From the NCBI GenBank assembly GCA_017623655.1, contig JAGAON010000005.1, positions 22,594 through 86,593 on the forward strand: a DNA stretch of 64,000 nt, in the 5' to 3' direction. A model generated the notes under the pieces. That model saw nothing but the letters and a program-made list of their open reading frames with translations, was not told where the DNA came from and did not search any database. Of the stretch, positions 5,901 through 25,853 are shown piece after piece. Each line of letters begins with the position of its first letter. Position 1 is the stretch's first letter. The position numbers were made by a program, and so were the translations under genes. The DNA comes from Prevotella sp. (GTDB lineage Bacteria > Bacteroidota > Bacteroidia > Bacteroidales > Bacteroidaceae).

Positions 5901-8330
5901 GTTCGCATATACCGTCATGCGCGAATCGCCGTTGGAGCCGTCTGTCCCTACCGTGAAGCGGTATTTTGTTCCGGGCGCCACCTCCTGTCCGTTCCCGTCA
6001 AGCGGTGTGACCTCCACGCCGTCCGCGTCCTGTATGATGACCTTGTACGACGTCTCGGGCAGTATCTCTTCCTCGACGATGCTCTTGAAGTCCTTCCAGT
6101 TGTCCTTCGCCGCATACAGGGCCGCGCTTCCCTTGGGCACGATGAGCTGTGTGCGTGGGGACCCCACGAACACGCACCAGTTGACAAACGCCGGAGTGCC
6201 GCGCAGTGACCTTACCTTTGTCAGGCGTGAGCAGTTGAGGAAAACGTTGTAGCCCCATGTGGCGACAGAGGCGGGAATCTCCACCTCTGACAGTCCGGTG
6301 CATTCAAAGGCGTTGGCGCCGAGGCGGTTGATGCTTTTCGGCAGCTTGACATATTTCAGCGAGCCGTAGCGGCTGAAGGCGCGTGTCGGTATGGCGTTTG
6401 CCGCGCTTGTGCCGTTTGCCGTTATCGTGACGCCTGACAGGTCCAGCGAGTCAACAAGCATTTTCTCGCGTATGAAGGCGAAGTCCCTGTCGTCCATCGT
6501 TCCGAAGAGCGTCAGGCTCTTCACCGTTCCGCACTCTTCCTCCGTCAGCGCCTTTTCAAGCGTGCCGCCGGAAATCCATAGCGTGCGGCGCAGCCTTACG
6601 TCCGCCGCGTCCTGCACATACACGTCGAGCGTGATGTCCTCCGTCACGTTGGGCAGCGTGTAGGTGAAGTCCTTTCCGGCTGTTATGATGCGCCCGTTGG
6701 CTTTCACGGTGACCACGTCGCCGGTGTTGCCGGGTATCACGCGGAAGGAGTAGCCCCTGCCCTTTATCACCCTGTCCGCCGCGTCCTCGATGGTGGCGCC
6801 GGCGATGTGTGACGGGGTCTTGACCGTGAAGTAGGCGATGTCGTTGCCCGTGGCGGCTATGGCGTTGGCGGTCAGCGAACCGCCGGTCATGGCCTTCCAC
6901 CCGCTTTCGCCGTTGGCCTTGGTGGCCATGCGTATGACGTCGCCCGGCGATACCGTCACGCCGGCGGGTACGGTGCAGCTGAAGTCACGGTAATAAGTTC
7001 CGTCCACCTGGAACGCCGCAAGGCCGTAGTTGTATTCCGGTGAGACGAGAGCCTTGAAAGTGCCGTCGGCGGCGAACAAGGCTACCGCTATCTTTCCGGA
7101 GAAACCGTCGTATGACACGTTCTTGAACGCTCCGGCGCGTACCGTGAAGCTGTCGCCCGCGCCGACAGACTCACGGTCGGAGCTCATGCCGATCTGCCTG
7201 CCGTCGCTTGTCAGCTGGACGGGAGACCATGCCACGCTGTTCTCCGCCGGCTTTATGTTGTAGATGACGGTGGCCTGCTCGGAGAAGTTCCATTTGTTTC
7301 CCGACTGTGTGGTCGGTGTGAGGCTTGAGACGAGGAAGACGTCGTTGCCTATGCCTCCCCATCCCCAGTTCATGCGGAAATAGGGCTGGTCGCCGCGCAT
7401 CTCGTAGCCGTCACATACGAAAGCGTGCCCGGCGGAAACGTCCTGACCGCTGTAAAGCACCGGGCGTCCCGCGTCGATTTCGCTCATGATGAGCTGCTCC
7501 CACGCTTTCTGTGACATCTCGGACTTCTTCTTGTATGAAACGCCCGCGTCATAGCCGAAGTAGCTGACCAGTGCTGCCGGCACCCTCACCTCGCTGGCGC
7601 TGCTGCTTGACATGGCGAAGTTTGTCTGTATGCTCTGCGCCGCGTCCGCTATCAGCTGCGCCACGGCGTTGGCCTGCTCCGTGGTATAGCCGCTGCGGTA
7701 GTTGTCCGTGCGCATATTCGCCCAGTCGTATGAATGGTTGAAGTCAATGCCGTCAAGGCTTCCCCTGCCGGCGGCCGGGTACTGGTAATACTGCATTATG
7801 GTAGCCATCGCCACGCCTACGCAGCCTACAAGCCTACGTCCCGGTATAAGGTTATTGAAAGGTGTCTCCTGGCTCCACTCGGCGGTGTTGCGCTCAAGCA
7901 CCCTGCGGCTTGTGACGGTTGACAGGGTGTTGGCGGATGTGGCCGTCCCGCCCGTTGCGGCGCTGTTCCTTATCTGCGCCTCGTAGTCTGCGAGCATCCG
8001 CTTCATGGCCTCCGGCATGGAGCCGTAGTCGAACCTGCCGCTGTCGGAGAATCCGATTACGGGTACTGTCGCGTCGTCTGCCGACACGATGACGAAGCCT
8101 CCGTCTCCACCTTTGTTGAATACATAATAATAAGGTGTAGAATTAGAACTGTCCTCACTAAGGCGCAGCTCGTCCGCCGTTTTTACGCCGGCGGCGCGCC
8201 CTGTGGAATGTCTGCCCAAAAAGCTCAGTGCTGTTTTCTTTGCATCAGAAACATCCACCCTTTTTGCGCTGGCGGGCAGAAAGGATGCTGACCCCAATAC
8301 GGCGAGACCAACAATAATTTTCTTGTACAT
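2913..8330 (-). CDS. secreted C10-family cysteine peptidase with BspA-type LRRs and T9SS tail
   Basis: Very large (1,805 residues) exported protease of the streptopain/prtT type. Residues 1-22 are a signal peptide ending ASA. A pro-region (about 23-145) precedes the catalytic domain, in which the nucleophile is Cys170 in LVGCVGVAMATIM and the base His302 in SAGHAFVCDGYE, followed by YFRMNWGWGG. Beyond about residue 380 come repeated beta-sandwich modules and at least three blocks of BspA-like leucine-rich repeats (for example IPTRAFSRYGSLKYVKLP and ITEIGDSAFAGCANL-type units), which usually mediate adhesion. The C-terminus (IYNINGQRM then NIINGKKVVVE) matches the type A sorting signal of the type IX secretion system, so the protein should be displayed on or released from the outer membrane. 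Most C10 peptidases are 400-900 residues, so the long LRR extension is unusual. A 21-bp in-frame tandem duplication lies at 3685-3726. Confidence 0.9.
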   Translation of the reverse strand: MYKKIIVGLAVLGSASFLPASAKRVDVSDAKKTALSFLGRHSTGRAAGVKTADELRLSEDSSNSTPYYYVFNKGGDGGFVIVSADDATVPVIGFSDSGRFDYGSMPEAMKRMLADYEAQIRNSAATGGTATSANTLSTVTSRRVLERNTAEWSQETPFNNLIPGRRLVGCVGVAMATIMQYYQYPAAGRGSLDGIDFNHSYDWANMRTDNYRSGYTTEQANAVAQLIADAAQSIQTNFAMSSSSASEVRVPAALVSYFGYDAGVSYKKKSEMSQKAWEQLIMSEIDAGRPVLYSGQDVSAGHAFVCDGYEMRGDQPYFRMNWGWGGIGNDVFLVSSLTPTTQSGNKWNFSEQATVIYNIKPAENSVAWSPVQLTSDGRQIGMSSDRESVGAGDSFTVRAGAFKNVSYDGFSGKIAVALFAADGTFKALVSPEYNYGLAAFQVDGTYYRDFSCTVPAGVTVSPGDVIRMATKANGESGWKAMTGGSLTANAIAATGNDIAYFTVKTPSHIAGATIEDAADRVIKGRGYSFRVIPGNTGDVVTVKANGRIITAGKDFTYTLPNVTEDITLDVYVQDAADVRLRRTLWISGGTLEKALTEEECGTVKSLTLFGTMDDRDFAFIREKMLVDSLDLSGVTITANGTSAANAIPTRAFSRYGSLKYVKLPKSINRLGANAFECTGLSEVEIPASVATWGYNVFLNCSRLTKVRSLRGTPAFVNWCVFVGSPRTQLIVPKGSAALYAAKDNWKDFKSIVEEEILPETSYKVIIQDADGVEVTPLDGNGQEVAPGTKYRFTVGTDGSNGDSRMTVYANNTKLTAVNNVYEAVINANTLIHAEFTEPEANAGTSPWTITGEKGGTGMVTDVINVMPGRTFTIRVNALNIPSGDSFSSGLMFAAALTDKEGRIKEIISPKIINPSGNTGVMPATFTCCVKESSVNEGNLIRIVTSSNTRTWKLVEGAAPEVKAMIPAIGNEVIYHTVKMPETIEKAIITNAVTQVLHGGDFSFSVNPKLSTDRVYVSVNGKDLVAGEKSANVKMENVKEDLDITISIYDEKEVPYHTYNIYAGQLAEKMTGMPVNKNIRLVGTMNKKDFETIQKYSASITAIDLSDVEITGDGQEAHSLPVKAFAPLSATSVSAIKTVKLPKTLKRIEQSAFYRLYSLTEITIPENVEYIGMYAFTYCPKLSKVTSLAAEPKPLSSDPFPSTNMNKNIVLEIPQGSKAKYQSLSYWNLFNTISEITPTYTVIYDPERAEPYNITTNTDKVNAGGKVSMKVKAHPIYNGNNPVKAGQKYKVYVNGTQHGGGWLAEDYNMWDITVNSDTRFDVVYFYDATLTAPQNVSVNMPQGYSLTDIKEGSDLKFTVTAPDNKDMTVKVRINGAEAMADETGIFTLENIQANAKVDVSVVPVNGATLNNDDLGTIDTGEVAGITDVKLDGEITEETFAVVRENFSGLENIDLSGMANTAIPEKAFEGLSNLVNVNMAECVTEIGDSAFAGCANLETLTLTNVTAIGGDAFAGCEKLTSVIINTTAKTGLRKLSMTKAAQGMTKAAQGIGTSSFAGANPNCLVFVMDGMAAGENIIANKGGEEGYVATSDIRINSGYAFDTPNTFTMNGNKVLMEHNLDAGNTWNSLVLPFNMNSEEISAAFGGNATVAHLDSISGQTIYFSDDSQKVKANTPFIISAADAKDSYTFSVDSIHSAEDYTADTKPGIEFVAAYAPQTLPEGCYTVSGNTANNAEEETISSFAGYFRIEGGAASYTLQIGKPTGTGSIEAAGAAYGKDKAIYNINGQRMSNLRPGINIINGKKVVVE
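3685..3726 (-). repeat. 21-bp in-frame tandem duplication
   Basis: Two identical consecutive 21-base units encode MTKAAQG twice near the C-terminal end of the last LRR block of the C10 peptidase. It adds exactly seven residues and looks recent because the units are identical. Confidence 0.8.
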
Positions 8331-18008: not shown

Positions 18009-18485
18009 TTATTTCTTCCCGTATTCAGCAAAGTTTATGTTATCGAATATGATATTGTCCCATATAGGATCTTCCTCTACATTGATATCTGGAAGCAAGA
18101 AATCCTCGATGTTTGCATGTATGGCAAGAATCTGTTCATCCGTCAAAGACAATCTGCTGCGAATTTTCTTGAAAAACTTTACTTCGGAATATTCTATTCT
18201 GTTATCAGCAAATATAGTCTGAATAGCAAAATCAACTATCTTTGTTTGTTCCTCATCTGATAGTCTTTGTGATCCTAATTCTTGAAGATACTTTTTCAAA
18301 AACGAGGCTCCGTCTGCGTTAATTGAAGTTACATATTCATTTATAGTAGCTTCAACGTTTATATCGCCAAATGTTCCTTGTTTAGAAGTTATATTTTTAA
18401 CTAACTCAATTTCTTCCTTTGCTATATCACCATCGCAAGCCATACAGCAGAAGATGGTCTTTAAGTACAATTCTTTTATATCCAT
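18009..18485 (-). CDS. TerB-like helical protein, last gene of the Hsp70 operon
   Basis: 158 residues, all helical and acidic, with the repeated pattern of the TerB (tellurite-resistance B) fold: FCCMACDGDIAKEEIELVKNI near the N-terminus and TIFADNRIEYSEVKFFKKIRSRLSL in the second half, each with the D-G-x-I/N-x-I-x-x-x-E metal-binding-like signature. In Ter-type stress systems TerB proteins bind divalent metal at the membrane. Here it is the sixth and last gene of the operon, 11 bases after the kinase-AAA+ gene, so a role as a sensing or scaffolding subunit of that complex is plausible but inferred. Confidence 0.75.
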   Translation of the reverse strand: MDIKELYLKTIFCCMACDGDIAKEEIELVKNITSKQGTFGDINVEATINEYVTSINADGASFLKKYLQELGSQRLSDEEQTKIVDFAIQTIFADNRIEYSEVKFFKKIRSRLSLTDEQILAIHANIEDFLLPDINVEEDPIWDNIIFDNINFAEYGKK

Positions 18486-18496
18486 ATTTTTAATGT

Positions 18497-20275
18497 TTAT
18501 ACAAATCCTATTTTAGGTCTATTAGCAGGTTTGTTAGTTTCTTCTCCGTCCATTTTTGCTTTGATGTCTTTATAGCGTTGCAGTTCTTTGTTATCCAAAG
18601 ACGGGTGAACTGCATCTATTGACTCTTTAAGCAGTATCATTGTTATCTTTGAGTGGCTTACCAGAGCATTTCTTGCTGCATTGTTTACAATGAGTTGTAT
18701 ATCAGCAGAAACATAATTTTCAGTAAGTTTGGAAAGTTCATCGTAATCCAAACCAAAGTCATACGGCCGTGATTTAAGATAGAGTTCAAACAAAGCTTTG
18801 CGGGCAGCGAAGTCCGGCACACCTATATAATATTTTTTGTCCAATCGTCCGGCGCGTAATATGGCGGGGTCAATCATATGAGGATAGTTTGTCGCTCCAA
18901 TAATGAAAATGCCTTTCTCGCCTGTCCTGTCCATTTGGGCAAGCATTTCGTTTACGGCACTTCGGTACATTTGATGTATGTTGCCATCGCGATTTGGAAC
19001 AAGTTCGTTCATTTCGTCAATGAAGATGATGGTCGGAGCATTTTCCTCTGCTTCCTTGAACATCTTGGCGATATTCTCCTGAGTAGCATTGACGTATTGG
19101 CTTTGAAGCGTTGCAGGGGTAATACACATGAAATTAAATCCGACCTCCTCCGCAAAATGTTTCGCAAAAAAAGTCTTGCCACATCCCGGAGGGCCATATA
19201 AAAGCATTCCGTTGGGTATCGTAACGCCATAGCGGCGGTATTCTTCCGGGTTATGCAGTGGTTCTATGACTTCTTCTTGTAGTTGTGCTTTCAGTTCATC
19301 CATACCCGCAATGGCAGCAAAACCTTCGCCCTTTTTCTTTGGAATTTGCGGAATATTTTTGTCAGAATAATTTTGTTGGGAAAGAATTTTTCTCTTGGTT
19401 GATTGTTTTCCAACTCTTATCTCGCTATCAATAGCTTTAATGAAATCATCAGCGGTTTGGAATCTGTCTTCAACATCATAGCTTAACGCTTTGGCTATTA
19501 CATTAAGAAACTGCTCATCCAATTCGTAACGATTATCATTTGTCAGGTCCAATTCTTTTTCACGCTCTGCCAATATAGCATCCACCCTGTCTTCTTTGTT
19601 GACTCTTGATAAATCAATAAACCATGGCAATTCGCCATAAAGCAACTGATACATCATTACGCCGACAGAGTATAAATCAGATTGAACTTGACTTACGCCG
19701 GAGAAGCGTTCGGGTGCAAGATAAAAAGCATTCAATGTGTTTATATCCGGCTTGGCAGGCGTTTGGTCGAGATAACAGGCATAACCGAAGTCTATCAGTT
19801 TCAAACTGTCCAAACTTCCTACAAGGTTAAGTAGGACATTTTGAATGGTCACCTCTCCATGTATAATAGGTACAGGTTGTTCATGGAGGTATGACAGAGC
19901 GGACAAGACGGACTTTGCAATCTGTTTAATCTCGTAAACACTCAAATTGCTATTCCTTATAATTCGCTGTGATAAGGTTTCGCTGCTTACATATTCTGTA
20001 ACAAGATATGTGTATTGTCCACCATCCAGCATCAGTTTCCCTGAATCTATATACTTACATAGATTGGGATGATTCAACTGTTTGGCAATTTCCACTTCCA
20101 CAACACGCCCCCTGTCGTCTATCTGATTATGATTCAGCTTACAGTAACAGATAAGTTTCAAAAAACGTGTTTTGCCCGCAGGATCTTTCACACGGTAGGT
20201 TTCCGCATAAGAACCTTGCTTATGCGGAAACGATACGGTGTAAGATGCTATTTTGTCGTTTTTATGAAATTTCAT
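18497..20275 (-). CDS. protein kinase-like domain fused to a Cdc48/FtsH-type AAA+ ATPase
   Basis: 592 residues with two clear domains. Residues about 8-290 form a eukaryotic-like protein kinase: Lys40 in FLKLI, Glu in VEVEIAKQLNHPN, hinge VTEYVSSE, catalytic loop IIHGEVTIQNVLL (His139-Gly140-Glu141, Asn146), Asp162-Phe-Gly164 and LAPERFSG. The usual catalytic HRD aspartate is glutamate and the lysine of the loop is threonine, so phosphotransfer may be weak or lost. Residues about 315-560 are a classic AAA+ module: Walker A GPPGCGKT at 361-368, Walker B IIFIDE at 416-421, and arginine-finger region LRAGRLDKKYYIGVPD. The kinase may sense or recruit clients for the ATPase. Six bases separate it from the repeat-protein gene upstream and 11 from the TerB gene downstream. 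Confidence 0.85.
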   Translation of the reverse strand: MKFHKNDKIASYTVSFPHKQGSYAETYRVKDPAGKTRFLKLICYCKLNHNQIDDRGRVVEVEIAKQLNHPNLCKYIDSGKLMLDGGQYTYLVTEYVSSETLSQRIIRNSNLSVYEIKQIAKSVLSALSYLHEQPVPIIHGEVTIQNVLLNLVGSLDSLKLIDFGYACYLDQTPAKPDINTLNAFYLAPERFSGVSQVQSDLYSVGVMMYQLLYGELPWFIDLSRVNKEDRVDAILAEREKELDLTNDNRYELDEQFLNVIAKALSYDVEDRFQTADDFIKAIDSEIRVGKQSTKRKILSQQNYSDKNIPQIPKKKGEGFAAIAGMDELKAQLQEEVIEPLHNPEEYRRYGVTIPNGMLLYGPPGCGKTFFAKHFAEEVGFNFMCITPATLQSQYVNATQENIAKMFKEAEENAPTIIFIDEMNELVPNRDGNIHQMYRSAVNEMLAQMDRTGEKGIFIIGATNYPHMIDPAILRAGRLDKKYYIGVPDFAARKALFELYLKSRPYDFGLDYDELSKLTENYVSADIQLIVNNAARNALVSHSKITMILLKESIDAVHPSLDNKELQRYKDIKAKMDGEETNKPANRPKIGFV

Positions 20276-20281
20276 ATAATG

Positions 20282-20836
20282 TTACCAAGTCCATATTTCC
20301 GTATTGGAATTGTTGCTTTTCTGATTCGTTGTGGTATTTCCGAACATATCCGTTTGCCTTGTAGTGGATGTTCCGGTCGTATTACCATAACGGTCTTTAT
20401 AGGTAGTAGTGGTATTTCCGAACATATCCGTTTGTCCCGTAGTTGATGTTCCGGTCGTATTGCCGTAACGGTCTTTATGGGTGGTTGTGGTATTTCCGAA
20501 CATATCCGTTTGTCCCGTAGTTGACGTTCCGGTCGTATTGCCGTAACGGTCTTTATGGGTGGTTGTGGTGTTACCAAACATATCCGTTTGCCCCGTAGTT
20601 GATGTTCCGGTCGTATTGCCGTAACGGTTTCTATGAGTAGTAGTGGTATTTCCGAACATATCCGTATGTCCTGTGGTTGACGTTCCCGTGGTGTTACCGT
20701 AACGGTTTCTATGAGTAGTTGTAGTATTGCCAAACATATCCGTTTGTCCCGTAGTAGATGTTCCTACATTATAATACTGTGCAAAAACCGTAAAAGGGCA
20801 GATTGCAACGATAAAAAATAAAATTGTCTTTTTCAT
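20282..20836 (-). CDS. secreted protein made of 26-residue tandem repeats
   Basis: 184 residues: a signal peptide (1-19, FTVFAQ) followed by about six near-identical 26-residue units of the form GTSTTGQTDMFGNTTTTHKD plus RYGNTT, and a short divergent tail ending EIWTW. The units are rich in Thr, Gly, Asn and Asp with a conserved DMFGN and RYGN, which suggests short beta-hairpins or a solenoid, possibly cation-binding. The underlying DNA repeats are 78 bp and highly similar, so copy number may vary between strains. It is embedded in the Hsp70 operon (15 bases after the Hsp70 stop, 6 before the kinase start). I know of no characterised relative; it may be a client or an exported effector of the chaperone machine. 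Confidence 0.75.
   Translation of the reverse strand: MKKTILFFIVAICPFTVFAQYYNVGTSTTGQTDMFGNTTTTHRNRYGNTTGTSTTGHTDMFGNTTTTHRNRYGNTTGTSTTGQTDMFGNTTTTHKDRYGNTTGTSTTGQTDMFGNTTTTHKDRYGNTTGTSTTGQTDMFGNTTTTYKDRYGNTTGTSTTRQTDMFGNTTTNQKSNNSNTEIWTW
20310..20775 (-). repeat. about six 78-bp coding tandem repeats
   Basis: The gene for the secreted repeat protein consists almost wholly of 78-bp units that differ by a few bases each (for example THRN versus THKD codons). Such a tract is prone to copy-number change by recombination or slippage. Boundaries are approximate. Confidence 0.75.
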
Positions 20837-20851
20837 TTCTGTCTATATTTA

Positions 20852-23344
20852 TTATTTTAATAATCCTCCTGCATTGGTAGCCTCGTCATTAGGCATCAGG
20901 TCAATAAGTCCACAAGCAATTGGATGCAGCTTATCTACAGTAGGCTGGTTGTTTATCTCTTCCATACCTTTGTTCACTAATTGACGGGCGCGCGAACTGT
21001 CTTTCCAACGTATGTTTGCAAAGCGACGTTGACAATCTTGAATTAGCCCCATACATTGATAAACCATAGTTATATGGACAAAAAGACTGTTGATGTGATC
21101 CAAAATCTCGCGTCCCATGCGCACATCTTTACTACGTATCACTTGGTCCGTTTGTGAGCGGAGTTGATTGACGATAGCCCCGGTCTTGTTGTCACCAAGT
21201 TCGTTTTGTGCTTTTTCAAGTCGTTCAAACTCTTCACGAAGCTCTTGTTCCAGTCGCTGCCATTCGGTGCTTTCGTCAAGGTCTTCAATCTTTCTAAGAA
21301 CTTCTTTGAGATGTTGTAGCACCATTTTCTTTTCCGAACTATTAGCGGCTTCGTCTTTTACCTGTTCCAAGTCTTTTTCTACATCGTTGGTTGAAATGCC
21401 TGAAACTTTCAAACGGTTAATGCTTCTTTGAGCATCGGTAATACCTTTTTTAATAACGTTAATGGCATCTTCTATTGATTGCTTTTTGTTTGTATCAAGG
21501 GGTTTTTCAACCGATGTATCCGTTGCCGGGAAATGTACTTCTAACACCATTTGTTCAGACGAATCAACTTTTAATGTAACGTCAACAGTACTGTCAGAAG
21601 GAATCAGTTGTTCTACTTCATCTCCTGTTATTATCACGTCCCCTACATATTCATAAAGAGAGACGGGGCGATTCTCGGCTTCGCTAAAATCATCCACTTG
21701 GTAAATTGGAATAGTCAATTTATCGCTGTCAACACCAGGACGTAGCTGACTTGATGTCTTTAAGTCGTTTACCACACCGATTGCCGGTACAGGTTTGTTT
21801 TTCTCCAGACCACGGGCCATACGGAACACCTCACGTTTCTTTTGGGAGTCCCAAACGGCAATGCCTATATTGTAAGGTAATGGAGCAGCTCCGACTTTAG
21901 AACCCTGTATTATAGTAATTCCATCAGGGAAGCAAGGAAGGGTATTGCCTTGGGCATCATAGCACATCACAGTGAAAGAATTGGGCTTTCCCTCTATCAG
22001 ATTAGCTTCAATCACATTACCGTTTCTGTCAATGTTTGTCTTTCCGCTTGACCATGCCTTATCACTGCGGACAAGTTCCACAAAGACCTCATTCAGTTTG
22101 GAATTCTTATTCAGTTTCACGCTAACCCATTCCGTGGTTTCCACGGATGTGGCTTCATATCCGACCTCAAGCTTTATGGTGTCAATTGCTATGTCTTCGT
22201 CGCTAACCTCTGCGTCTGTTGTTGAAGCATACAATGCTGCACCTGTGGCTACGGCTGTCATCGGGTCGATACTTGTGTCAACATTGGGAGTAATCTGTTC
22301 TCTGAGCATTTGACGGATAAGAGGTGAATGGGTTGGCCCGCCGACAAGAATCAACTTGTCAAGTTTTGATGAATCAAGATTGTTGCGCTCTAATAGTTTT
22401 TTACAGATGTCAACAGCTTTCTGGAAATAAGGGCGCATTACATTAAACGCTTCATCTTGCGTCACAGTGAGGTCAAGTTCTATTTCCTCACCATCCTCGT
22501 CTTCACCAAGGTCTCCAAGGTTGGAAATAATATCCTCATGATCTTTGAAAGAAAGTTGGTTCTTTACATCCTCAGCGTATGTCTTCATGGCATCCCTAAG
22601 GATTTCTTTCTTCTGATTATTACTCAAATAGTTTTCTATGCTATAATTCTTTTGTAGATAAGGTACAATAATCTTATCAACAATAGCATAATCCAGGTTC
22701 TTGCCGCCAAGGTAGTTGTCTCCTTCGGTGTCGAAAACTTGCATGATGCCGTCTTCCACCTTTAACAGAGCCGCATCAAAAGTACCTCCTCCGAAATCAA
22801 ATACCATCCAAATACCATTCTTGGTATCAGTAGAAAGTCCGTATGCCATAGCTGCTGCGATGGGCTCTTGTAATAGTTCACAACGTTTGAACCCCGCCAT
22901 CTTAGCGGCTTCCATAGTCGCTGTTTTCTGATTTACTGTAAATTTGGCGGGAACGGTGATAACAACAGATGATATGTTCTCATCTGTGACATACGATTTT
23001 AACGTTTTCAATACTTCTGCGGATAACTCTTCAGATGAAAAGTCTTTTTCAATATGGCTACTTGAATATTTTGTATTTGTAGCCATTGTACGTTTGAATT
23101 CAATGTAGGTGTTTGAAGTCCCCACCTGCCATGATTTTGTTGCGCGACGTTTGTCACTCTTCATATTGTTGTAAGCACCGTCACCTACTTTTACTGATTT
23201 CTTTTTGTTGAAAGACACACATGACGGCATAGTGTCTTTGAGTGTATCGCTTTTAATGATAACTGGTTCGCCTTTTTCCATGCGGCAGATGGCCGAATTG
23301 GTTGTACCGAGATCGATGCCATAATCTATTTTTAATCTTGCCAT
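20852..23344 (-). CDS. Hsp70-family (DnaK-like) chaperone with long C-terminal region
   Basis: 830 residues, longer than canonical DnaK (about 640). The nucleotide-binding domain has all signatures: phosphate-1 loop GIDLGTTNSAIC (residues 9-20), LQEPIAAAMAYGL, phosphate-2 loop VFDFGGGTFDAALL and adenosine motif LILVGGPTHSPLIRQML. The segment after the linker diverges: instead of a standard substrate domain there is a longer beta-rich region (about 400-610, including VWDSQKKREVFRMARGLEKN), followed by a long alpha-helical/coiled-coil tail (about 630-790). The nearby J-like and GrpE-like genes upstream make it a dedicated chaperone, separate from the housekeeping DnaK that the genome should carry elsewhere. 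It is 13 bases after the GrpE-like gene. Cytosolic by sequence: no signal peptide. Confidence 0.9.
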   Translation of the reverse strand: MARLKIDYGIDLGTTNSAICRMEKGEPVIIKSDTLKDTMPSCVSFNKKKSVKVGDGAYNNMKSDKRRATKSWQVGTSNTYIEFKRTMATNTKYSSSHIEKDFSSEELSAEVLKTLKSYVTDENISSVVITVPAKFTVNQKTATMEAAKMAGFKRCELLQEPIAAAMAYGLSTDTKNGIWMVFDFGGGTFDAALLKVEDGIMQVFDTEGDNYLGGKNLDYAIVDKIIVPYLQKNYSIENYLSNNQKKEILRDAMKTYAEDVKNQLSFKDHEDIISNLGDLGEDEDGEEIELDLTVTQDEAFNVMRPYFQKAVDICKKLLERNNLDSSKLDKLILVGGPTHSPLIRQMLREQITPNVDTSIDPMTAVATGAALYASTTDAEVSDEDIAIDTIKLEVGYEATSVETTEWVSVKLNKNSKLNEVFVELVRSDKAWSSGKTNIDRNGNVIEANLIEGKPNSFTVMCYDAQGNTLPCFPDGITIIQGSKVGAAPLPYNIGIAVWDSQKKREVFRMARGLEKNKPVPAIGVVNDLKTSSQLRPGVDSDKLTIPIYQVDDFSEAENRPVSLYEYVGDVIITGDEVEQLIPSDSTVDVTLKVDSSEQMVLEVHFPATDTSVEKPLDTNKKQSIEDAINVIKKGITDAQRSINRLKVSGISTNDVEKDLEQVKDEAANSSEKKMVLQHLKEVLRKIEDLDESTEWQRLEQELREEFERLEKAQNELGDNKTGAIVNQLRSQTDQVIRSKDVRMGREILDHINSLFVHITMVYQCMGLIQDCQRRFANIRWKDSSRARQLVNKGMEEINNQPTVDKLHPIACGLIDLMPNDEATNAGGLLK

Positions 23345-23357
23345 AATATTTGGATAT

Positions 23358-24269
23358 TTAAATGTTTTGACTTACTGTAATTTGAGCAGATTGTATCATC
23401 CTGCCGTTATAATTGATTTGTGGCTTAGTAACACCGGTTATTATTTGTTCACCTTCATTTAAGGTATCGTCAGGAACGAAGTTGGCTACCACCTTCATAC
23501 CCTCGTTATATGGTTTGCCAAGCATATCAATGATTTCATAACCATTTGCCATGAAGTTGTTTTTTATACGTTCTACAGCTTTGGACAGTTGTTTATATCC
23601 CTTTACAGAAGCATCCATCCGGGAAAGGTTAAGCTCAATGCGTACAATTTCGTCAGCTACTTTGAGGGCTAAAGAATGATCGGTTTCGTTGTTGTTTGTT
23701 GTTGTCGGTACATTCGCAATCTGTTGCTGAACCAAGGTCAGCATCTGGCTGTCCAGTTTTATGGAGTCTTCCTGCATCTTGGCTTGGGCGGACTGCAAAG
23801 CCTTTTGCGCCCTGCGAACCTCGTCAATGGAAGAGTCGCCTTTCTTTATCCGCTTTGTCAGATAAAGGAAAACAGCGAACAGGAATAGTAATATGGTGAT
23901 AAATATAACTCTTCCCCAAACGGTCCTGCGCTCTACTGTGGATTGGTTGGAAGCCACGGCATTGTCCGTTTTCCGAATCTTGTCACTGATAGTGGTGCGG
24001 TCCTTAGTCTGCGTTTCTTGCAGTTGTCCGCATACGTTTTTAATACTGTCTAAACTTTTATTCAGAGTCTCGTTGCGCTGGGTCAACATTTCCATGTCTT
24101 GTTTGTGCTGCCGAGTGACAGTCAAAAGTTTCCTGTCCAAGTCTTCACGCACCAAGATTGTCATCTTTTCCATTACGTAATTCTCATTACTTCTCGTTTG
24201 GCTGGTTGCCGACATAGAGAAGCAACACACAGCAAAGACGCTTGCTAAAATTCTTTTTGCTTTTTCCAT
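23358..24269 (-). CDS. membrane-anchored coiled-coil protein with GrpE-like C-terminal domain
   Basis: 303 residues. The N-terminus is hydrophobic and reads as a signal peptide or first membrane segment (about 7-23, ILASVFAVCCFSMSATS), followed by a polar coiled coil (30-110), a strong membrane segment (about 121-141, FITILLFLFAVFLYLTKRI), a second coiled coil (150-200) and a C-terminal domain. That last part, about 200-303, has the GrpE head pattern: long helix KVADEIVRIELNL, then NGYEIIDMLGKPYNEGMKVVANF and MIQSAQITVSQ, matching the G-x-E-x-I-D-x-x-G-x-x-[FY] and final A-x-V-x-V strands of nucleotide-exchange factors. A signal peptide plus one membrane segment would put the coiled coil outside and the GrpE-like domain in the cytosol, next to the Hsp70. 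This assignment is inferred from pattern, not search. Confidence 0.7.
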   Translation of the reverse strand: MEKAKRILASVFAVCCFSMSATSQTRSNENYVMEKMTILVREDLDRKLLTVTRQHKQDMEMLTQRNETLNKSLDSIKNVCGQLQETQTKDRTTISDKIRKTDNAVASNQSTVERRTVWGRVIFITILLFLFAVFLYLTKRIKKGDSSIDEVRRAQKALQSAQAKMQEDSIKLDSQMLTLVQQQIANVPTTTNNNETDHSLALKVADEIVRIELNLSRMDASVKGYKQLSKAVERIKNNFMANGYEIIDMLGKPYNEGMKVVANFVPDDTLNEGEQIITGVTKPQINYNGRMIQSAQITVSQNI

Positions 24270-24281
24270 AACTATGATTTT

Positions 24282-25847
24282 TTAATGTTCTTTTCCTCCT
24301 ATAATCAATCCTAATACAAATAATACAATGATAATTCCAAGAATGCAACCCACAACACCACCACAAATAGTACTAACAACGCCTCCAATTATTAGAAGAC
24401 CGGCTATACAAGACCATGTATCATTTGTGGAATCGGGTGTGGAAATTGTTGTGGAATCAGGTGTGGAAACTTTTAATTGTCCGCATATATTTTTTAGTGT
24501 AGCACGATTTTCTTTGTATCTGTTCTTCTTAAAGTCAGGTTCCATATCAAACTTATCCATCAAAACAATTATTGGCCAAGCGGCTGTTAAGATCTTTTTT
24601 AGATTTTCTATTTTTGAACGTGCAGCATCAGCATCATCAAATATTATTGTATGTATTGTAGATTGTGCTTCATTTACCTTTTCTATTAGGCAATTCAGCG
24701 CATTGTTTATAACTTGCGTAGATAGTTTTAGATAATAAGCATTCTCCGCGCCAAGTTCTTTCTTAATCACATCCAAGTGAGGCTTGGTCTTTTCCAGTAA
24801 GATTTTAGCTTCGTACAGACCTTTATGTGACTGTCGAAATATACCCAGTTCCTTTTTTATTTCCTTATCTTTTTCTGACACCTCTGCCGGAGGCAATTCG
24901 TCTATGATTCTCTGTAATACATTCATATTTTCCTTACAGCGACTTCTTGCCATGCTGCCTACCACCACAGACTGCGCATATAATAGAAGTTCCATCGCCT
25001 TATGAACCGCATTGTCAGACTTGATGTCATTATAATAGTCGATGCTGCATTGCAAGATCTCCAGTCCCAATTTGTCCGCAATCATCTGATATTGCAAATC
25101 TGATACAGGAAGTAACTCTTTTAGTTGTGCAAGTGTTGCTTGTGTTTCGTTTTTCAATTTCATTCCGGCATTATAACGTATAGCACCATGTGTTCCCTTT
25201 GGCGCTTTTGCTGAGTCTATCGCTGATTGCAACGCTGCTATTAAAGGTTTTACGGCCTGACTACTTACATATTGTCGCCACTCGTCATTGGGAAGGCATG
25301 GCATAATGTCTTTTACACCGACGGAGGAGCAAAGCTCATCAAGAAAGATGTATTCAGCTTTATCTATAACCAAAGTATGATTCTCGCCCAAAACAAGGTT
25401 TACAAAGTCCGCAGAATAAGAGTGATAAAGTTTTTCCGCTAATGCAAGAGCCTGCTTATAGTCACTGATTATCAGTGCGCACACTATCCGGTTTTGTAGT
25501 GAGGAGACATTCTCTTTCTTCTCCCAAATGGACTTTGCACTGTCAATATTCCCCGCTGTCAGGTGGTTCATTGCTATATCATCAAAAGGGGTAGCCTTTA
25601 TGAACCAGAATTGTGCGTACCTGAATTGGTCGTTAGGTAACGTCAACTCTGCATCAGCATTCGCCACCGTGTCGGCAGTTCTGTTTATAGAAGGAAGCGA
25701 TGTTGGCAGATCTAAGGCGAACGATATGTCTTTCCCCACTTTCAGAAAAGCTTTCAGTCTGTTATGGTTCGCCACTCGTTCTTTTGTAGGCGAGTTAGAA
25801 TATATGCCTAAAAGACGATAAGGATTGTTTCGTATTATGTTCAGCAT
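24282..25847 (-). CDS. J-domain-like protein with C-terminal membrane segments, first gene of the Hsp70 operon
   Basis: 521 residues from the ATG at 25847; a TTG two codons upstream is unlikely. The N-terminus NIIRNNPYRLLGIYSNSPTK resembles the opening helix of a J domain (N-P-Y-x-x-L-G), followed by RLKAFLKVGKDISF, but the HPD tripeptide that activates Hsp70 is absent. The middle (about 80-460) is helical and TPR-like, with patterns such as AKSIWEKKENVSSLQNRIVCALIISDYKQALALAEKLY. The C-terminus (about 475-518) has two or more hydrophobic segments rich in glycine (LLIIGGVVSTICGGVVGCILGIIIVLFVLGLII) and so anchors the protein in the membrane. It would recruit or position the Hsp70 at the inner membrane. 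It is followed after 12 bases by the GrpE-like gene. Confidence 0.7.
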   Translation of the reverse strand: MLNIIRNNPYRLLGIYSNSPTKERVANHNRLKAFLKVGKDISFALDLPTSLPSINRTADTVANADAELTLPNDQFRYAQFWFIKATPFDDIAMNHLTAGNIDSAKSIWEKKENVSSLQNRIVCALIISDYKQALALAEKLYHSYSADFVNLVLGENHTLVIDKAEYIFLDELCSSVGVKDIMPCLPNDEWRQYVSSQAVKPLIAALQSAIDSAKAPKGTHGAIRYNAGMKLKNETQATLAQLKELLPVSDLQYQMIADKLGLEILQCSIDYYNDIKSDNAVHKAMELLLYAQSVVVGSMARSRCKENMNVLQRIIDELPPAEVSEKDKEIKKELGIFRQSHKGLYEAKILLEKTKPHLDVIKKELGAENAYYLKLSTQVINNALNCLIEKVNEAQSTIHTIIFDDADAARSKIENLKKILTAAWPIIVLMDKFDMEPDFKKNRYKENRATLKNICGQLKVSTPDSTTISTPDSTNDTWSCIAGLLIIGGVVSTICGGVVGCILGIIIVLFVLGLIIGGKEH

Positions 25848-25853
25848 TAGCAA

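Follow-up and report, generated by a model that had tools for sequence, protein, structure and literature searches.

A horizontally spread Hsp70 operon, mainly of Bacteroidota, with a divergent GrpE relative and changes on both sides of the J-Hsp70 contact

A conserved gene order around a divergent Hsp70

The stretch of DNA analysed here, 64,000 nucleotides of a Prevotella sp. contig (JAGAON010000005.1) and referred to throughout as the window, carries on its minus strand, at positions 18009-25847, six genes that include a divergent Hsp70 and two putative membrane partners. In order of transcription they encode a J-like membrane protein of 521 residues (24282..25847, from an ATG start, with a TTG start at 25853 also open), a GrpE-like transmembrane protein of 303 residues (23358..24269), the Hsp70 itself, which has 830 residues and keeps its ATPase residues (20852..23344), a secreted-looking protein of 184 residues built of 26-residue repeats (20282..20836), a kinase-like domain fused to a classic AAA+ ATPase (18497..20275, 592 residues) and a TerB-like protein of 158 residues (18009..18485); the segments and motifs within these genes given below lie on the same strand. 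The initial annotation, made from the letters alone, had described six tightly packed minus-strand genes with gaps of 6-15 bases, and the coordinates and gaps (12, 13, 15, 6 and 11 bases) are confirmed. GC content is 37-42% per kilobase across 18-26 kb; on the left it is 59-62% over two kilobases, and on the right 48-50% for two kilobases and then 53-63%. The assembly comprises 1.93 Mb in 9 contigs and is about 60% complete. Among 60 genomes of the genus, the gene flanking the operon on the left occurs in one, the window's own, and the gene flanking it on the right in 20.

A search of genome contigs with a GrpE-like profile recovered 76 loci. Their neighbours were assessed with profiles, each derived from five to seven systems, and a gene was counted as present or absent only if the contig extended far enough. 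Of 69 loci open to this check, 68 have the J-like gene upstream of the GrpE-like gene; the Hsp70 gene lies downstream of the GrpE-like gene in 75 of 75, with the kinase-AAA+ gene following in 54 of 62 and the TerB-like gene in 46 of 57. The set is held together in many genomes. Relative gene order is without exception, and some loci have extra copies of the J-like or kinase-AAA+ gene. The eight loci scored as lacking the fusion include the Psychroflexus locus L072, where two Hsp70s of the family stand within one operon and the kinase-AAA+ gene lies behind the second, and L043 and L077, where the TerB-like gene directly follows Hsp70. The six-gene grouping is a kept system, far from chance, with one position, that of the repeat protein, open to exchange.

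Bacteroidota are the main carriers of the core of J-like, GrpE-like and Hsp70 genes, which also turns up in a few records with Gammaproteobacteria or Desulfovibrionaceae in their titles. This core stands without the kinase-AAA+ gene in L064, L069, L079 and the Desulfovibrio locus L086; in L093, L096 and L097, all titled Gammaproteobacteria, just 341-1326 bases of contig remain past Hsp70, too few to show what follows. L089 has no called GrpE-like open reading frame (ORF). Within the family of the window's genome the J-like protein has a match in 10 of 301 genomes, seven of which, the window's own included, carry the core; the remaining three are fragments or weak C-terminal matches. The operon is mobile and horizontally spread. 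The copies in Lunatimonas (L059) and in an Allomuricauda metagenome-assembled genome (MAG; L060), which belong to different classes, share 90-92% DNA identity across the operon with unmatched flanks, showing transfer between bacterial classes. A plasmid search made with Hsp70 only, at E 1e-100, returned one record; among viral contigs, 24 pattern matches to the GrpE-like protein yielded no confirmed relative, and phage records yielded none. Some records have doubtful origins: L030 and L045 are MAGs labelled Clostridia with Bacteroidales-like copies, reflecting misbinning or recent transfer (the L030 Hsp70 is 90% identical to that of the window across 420 columns), and L083 and L085, whose MAGs bear the labels Bacteroides and Duncaniella, have contigs that agree at 99.99% identity across 16.6 kb, probably one duplicated or misbinned contig.

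The GrpE-like and J-like partners and the contact with Hsp70

A Pfam scan gave no informative match for the GrpE-like or J-like protein of the window, and the GrpE-like assignment comes from structure prediction, the J-like one from profile comparison. The GrpE-like protein has a hydrophobic N-terminus, a long helix, a transmembrane segment at residues 115-142 (23844..23927, from a hydropathy scan, with a basic KRIKK stretch after it), a second coil and a GrpE-fold domain at residues 199-301 (23367..23675). The last is a confidently predicted block of two helices and six strands (predicted local distance difference test 94-97), and the six best structural matches of the AlphaFold model are all GrpE, which supports the assignment first made by pattern. 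The Pfam GrpE model does not match the window protein and is absent among the best 25 of 302 families for 64 members of the system. An initial profile comparison with 27 sequences was not significant (E 0.096); a later one covered trimmed domains from 57 of 60 GrpE loci, the other three being without a usable ORF. Transmembrane segments were counted in GrpE-like ORFs longer than 270 residues. The protein is thus a divergent GrpE relative, not a standard GrpE, with the helices and six-stranded beta domain of the GrpE fold in its predicted model.

The J-like protein is composed of an N-terminal J-like domain (about residues 8-82), a helical middle and a C-terminal hydrophobic segment (477-521), the last present in 50 of 59 aligned rows. 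By profile its N-terminal 85 residues match J domains (E 2.3e-5, probability 75.8%), a score reached by none of 150 column shuffles. The whole-protein profile gave six PDB matches, none of them a J-domain chain, and weak TPR-type matches over the middle, and Pfam DnaJ matches one of the 59 rows, apparently a separate DnaJ-type protein (L095:9203) that is included in the alignment (A3) without being a true family member. Alignments A3 and A4 omit L029, L062, L064, L068, L069 and L085, and A4 also omits the GrpE-like protein of L093 (678 residues); two of 30 DnaJ control loci lacked a usable ORF. The domain is constrained, with N8, P9, R11, G14 and D46 kept in 75-77 of 77 sequences, yet none of the 77 has an HPD motif in it. 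An ungapped hand count from LG followed by V or I places the HPD spacing at K36-V37-G38, within a KVGK stretch (residues 36-39; 25731..25742). Position 36 is Lys or Arg in 55 of 77 and position 39 in 69 of 77; since position 37 is Val, Ile or Ala in all 77, HPD is excluded at 36-38. The profile aligner instead sets D46 (conserved in 75 of 77) opposite the HPD aspartate, where the hand count pairs KVG, which makes the register provisional; HPD is absent at D46 as well, and the HPD letters of the L096 and L097 proteins fall after the W81 region. Of the original J-like call, the resemblance to J domains by profile and the membrane tether stand; an HPD motif and a J-domain chain among the six PDB profile matches were not found. 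Two systems also have separate DnaJ-type proteins nearby (L091:15605, L095:8513 and L095:9203), with DPS, DPK or DPA, by eye, at the expected HPD.

The Hsp70 of the window is recognised without difficulty (Pfam HSP70, 1.2e-69). System Hsp70s form a clade apart from 13 DnaKs, and seven catalytic positions are kept in 74-76 of 76 members (the fragments L041 and L092 were dropped). The surface that would meet a J domain is different. In the alignment of these 76 proteins, the residue equivalent to DnaK R167 is Glu156 of the window protein (codon 22877..22879), and it is Glu in 73, Ser in two and Gln in one; the arginine is present in 30 of 30 control DnaKs, that of the window's own genome included (one of 30 control loci failed the motif filter). 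Two further positions that we take to serve docking in DnaK are also altered: 69 of the 76 have Lys or Arg at the equivalent of E206, and 72 have Gln or Lys at that of E217. One published study reports both the Hsp70 arginine, across its own data, and the HPD aspartate that targets it as invariant, and finds that substitution of R167 in DnaK leaves J stimulation ineffective with basal activity somewhat raised (PMC7289447).

Both sides of the standard HPD-R167 trigger are therefore changed in this family. Where Glu is present and the J-like domain usable (63 systems), position 36 of the J-like protein is Lys or Arg in 50; it is neither in any of the three systems without Glu, although two of these three are sisters and the comparison is uncorrected for kinship; the copy on plasmid pHALHY02 reads EAEQ in its J-like protein together with Glu in its Hsp70. 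We hypothesize that a charge-inverted contact replaces the HPD-R167 pair. The initial annotation had read the locus as a full chaperone cycle anchored at the inner membrane. A dedicated Hsp70 with membrane-tethered GrpE-fold and J-like partners, the latter by profile only, is upheld; with neither the HPD motif in the J-like protein nor its target arginine in the Hsp70, this is not the standard J/Hsp70 cycle.

The kinase-AAA+ fusion, the TerB-like protein and the exchangeable slot

The fusion protein matches both Pfam AAA (2.6e-36) and Pkinase (1.1e-33). Its AAA+ part, nearest to CDC48 and FtsH models, is intact across the 63 members aligned: Walker A Lys, Walker B Glu and sensor-1 Asn are kept in all 63, and the two arginine fingers in 61 and 63. 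In the kinase part of the window copy HGE stands in place of HRD (19853..19861), with Glu for the catalytic Asp. The Asp is lost in 51 of 63 members (kept in 12; Glu in 38, the window included), while the nucleotide-binding residues are mostly retained (Lys in 59 of 63, the DFG Asp in 54 of 63). On the strength of these residues, most members probably carry a pseudokinase or a weak kinase, and the annotation of a kinase-AAA+ fusion holds for its architecture and its ATPase, with a kinase that is probably impaired because HGE replaces HRD. The TerB-like protein falls below the Pfam cut-off (TerB 1.4e-4, 22.6 bits, cut-off 24.4); the gene in the same position on pHALHY02 is annotated as TerB family.

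In 28 of 54 loci more than 200 bases separate Hsp70 from the kinase-AAA+ gene, and the genes found there are unrelated to one another: CpXC zinc-ribbon proteins, types of 206 and 307 residues with apparent membrane segments, SH3 proteins (as in L058), lipoprotein-like proteins and DUF2971. Even L059 and L060, for all the DNA identity of their operons, have different slot genes. In the window this slot holds the repeat protein, with a hydrophobic N-terminus and repeats recurring every 78 bases, which had been listed as a member of the system and a possible exported substrate; as an accessory gene outside the conserved core, it is not retained as such. It has no relatives in the 76 system loci and a match in 8 of 201 genomes of the same family, the window's own included. 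Six neighbourhoods from the other seven genomes (G111 excluded) gave no tblastn match to any of the five remaining operon genes, with two of the stretches reaching a contig end. The repeat protein as a dedicated client of the machine is rejected on these grounds, having no relative in the 76 loci and, in those six neighbourhoods, relatives that lie apart from the machine.

Several smaller features of the slot may be recorded here. A beta-rich-looking module, with motifs such as GCSQIKV, FFYYGKGW and GGF, recurs in lipoprotein-like slot proteins, in the J-like profile towards its C-terminal end and in the DnaJ-type protein L095:9203-10990; it occurs at L060:13326-14009, where it has no Pfam match, and in L067, L071, L072, L082, L065 and L042. 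At L256 (5793-6089 and 7579-8349) a relative of the repeat protein lies, by eye, near a small membrane protein of MPYGYY type and a vWA-like protein, and the MPYGYY type also follows TerB in these operons, which hints at a shared pool of accessory genes. The slot protein L074:13131-13748, without a Pfam match, contains, by eye, the stretch RDHLCH, an RxxxxH-like pattern that recalls HEPN domains.

A proposed membrane-docked Hsp70 machine, its possible roles and its relatives

Taken together, these observations favour a self-contained, horizontally spread, membrane-docked Hsp70 motor with a GrpE-type exchange factor and an altered J contact, a reading to which we give a probability of about 0.6. 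In such a motor the membrane-anchored J-like protein would recruit its dedicated Hsp70 at the inner membrane without the HPD/DnaK-R167 contact, and since the contact dispenses with both, the pair is probably insulated from the housekeeping DnaK and DnaJ. The exchange factor is predicted to span the membrane, with a coiled coil that we infer to be on the far side and its exchange domain in the cytosol, an arrangement through which envelope signals could govern how fast nucleotide is exchanged and substrate released. The AAA+ ATPase with its mostly degenerate kinase and the TerB-like protein may act with Hsp70 on the same substrate, as unfoldase or extractase, and the exchangeable slot would supply locus-specific membrane or secreted adaptors. 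The more specific proposal is an orthogonal Hsp70 machine in which a transmembrane GrpE converts signals from the envelope into nucleotide exchange, a partly charge-inverted contact bars cross-talk with DnaK and DnaJ, and the module moves between classes while swapping its slot adaptors; we advance it tentatively, at somewhat less than an even chance.

For the physiological role we lean slightly, and without confidence, towards defence, an anti-phage or conflict system in which signs of infection, from the envelope or from within the cell, would reach the Hsp70/AAA+ core and cause it to release or activate locus-specific effectors encoded in the slot or downstream. This is plausible while falling short of probable. 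It is consistent with the patchy, mobile distribution and with the company kept by several copies: on the Haliscomenobacter plasmid pHALHY02 the operon, complete from J-like to TerB-like gene (the J-like and GrpE-like genes recognised by eye), stands between SIR2/WD40 genes and the BREX genes brxL and pglZ; in L044 the third gene downstream of TerB encodes a TIR protein; in L028 a gene for a DUF6602 protein (6082-6846) separates the J-like and GrpE-like genes; and 6 of 76 loci, against none of 20 control stretches, have an XRE-type regulator some 10-100 bases upstream. The fusion protein matches PADLOC kinases and ATPases at the level of domains (mad6 2.3e-39, IetA 7.5e-37), and conflict systems with HSP70, GrpE and DnaJ have been described (PMC7159879). 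Yet the Hsp70, GrpE-like, J-like and repeat proteins have no PADLOC match at E values up to 0.1, and no defence island was found around the window copy. The enrichment in the flanks is modest, with 40 PADLOC families at E 1e-20 in 102 sampled ORFs (of 244 eligible) versus 24 in 102 control ORFs (all those eligible in 20 stretches of four genomes), counting families rather than proteins and with controls from other genomes than most test loci. Judged by eye, with ten proteins scanned from the slot, from neighbouring genes and from downstream, the slot families that recur resemble small proteins of membrane or secreted type rather than toxins.

Those same slot proteins, which look secreted or lipid-anchored and in L058 include an SH3 domain, would suit envelope quality control, in which the machine extracts or retains misfolded or stalled inner-membrane or exported proteins, the GrpE-like protein senses stress and the slot protein is substrate or sensor. 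The membrane-spanning GrpE-like protein, the hydrophobic segment of the J-like protein and the affinity of the AAA+ domain to CDC48 and FtsH point the same way, and the architecture fits this role as well as it fits defence. The patchy distribution does not: one would expect a housekeeping function to occur widely, yet the J-like protein is matched in only the ten of 301 same-family genomes noted above, and slot content differs from locus to locus. We consider envelope quality control doubtful for these reasons, if still a serious candidate. Alternatively, the change at R167 could have uncoupled the Hsp70 from J regulation altogether, leaving a raised basal rate and a J-like domain that is a degenerate tethering scaffold. 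The behaviour reported for DnaK substituted at R167 agrees with such a loss, as does a non-basic position 36 in 13 of the 63 Glu-bearing systems and in the plasmid copy. We think it unlikely, however: a decaying scaffold accords poorly with the strong constraint on the J-like N-terminal domain and with the near-invariant placement of its gene ahead of the GrpE-like gene, and the docking patch is altered at several places, not one.

The nearest described systems are the GAP1-N2 conflict systems with HSP70, GrpE and DnaJ, GTPase-centric and predominantly of actinobacteria and firmicutes (Kaur et al. 2020; PMC7159879). They resemble the present operon in having an operon-borne HSP70 with its own GrpE and a DnaJ-fused protein, predicted to work near the membrane, along with variable components and envelope-type domains. 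They differ in centring on GAP1 and GTPases with FNIII repeats, whereas the present operon occurs mainly in Bacteroidota and has a membrane-spanning GrpE-like protein, a J-like domain without HPD, a kinase-AAA+ fusion and a TerB-like protein; the section on the HSP70 theme mentions neither such a fusion nor TerB. Among the listed Pfam matches of the six operon proteins (the best 25 of 35 for the kinase-AAA+ fusion) there is no GTPase, the flanks not having been searched with GAP1 models. CoCoNuT systems also place Hsp70-like modules in predicted defence operons, often with TerY-P genes, but there the unit is fused to McrB/McrC homologues and is judged to be a very poor ATPase, whereas here it is free-standing with its ATPase residues intact (PMC11090510). 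With the housekeeping DnaK-DnaJ-GrpE set the operon shares the Hsp70 ATPase residues and the GrpE fold; Glu at R167, Lys or Arg at E206, the lack of HPD, the membrane-tethered partners and the separate Hsp70 clade distinguish it. The mitochondrial import motor PAM (mtHsp70, Mge1, Pam18, Pam16) is, in outline, a comparable membrane Hsp70 motor with J and J-like partners and a GrpE, though no homology is claimed. Pam16 has lost HPD; in the present system it is the core J-like partner that lacks it, and the putative exchange factor itself spans the membrane. The TerB-like protein is weakly similar to BnzA (E 1.4e-4), which we take to be the Bunzi defence protein, but no other Bunzi protein is found among the six operon products and TerB alone is a loose link. 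TerB is considered a possible ligand-binding sensor in a membrane system related to phage and stress, and the Ter operons described with it contain TerC, TerD, TerF, TelA and nucleotide-metabolism genes and no Hsp70 machine (PMC7824862); TerC, TerD and related families are absent among the listed Pfam matches of the six proteins, the flanks not having been scanned for them. A literature search of open-licence papers, which older reports on Ter systems may escape, found no description of the gene set.

A family that keeps its ATPase residues but has neither side of the HPD-arginine contact would allow the way in which J proteins trigger Hsp70 to be tested directly, and there is a real chance that it embodies a new principle of Hsp70 control. 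The altered J-Hsp70 pair could supply orthogonal chaperone pairs, and a membrane-spanning exchange factor would be a new route to controlling Hsp70 from outside the cytosol. If the system does defend against phage, a full Hsp70 cycle would be placed within bacterial immunity. Beside the operon in the window, an ORF at 27003-27659 matches the RhuM family over model positions 1-132 of 252 and looks truncated.

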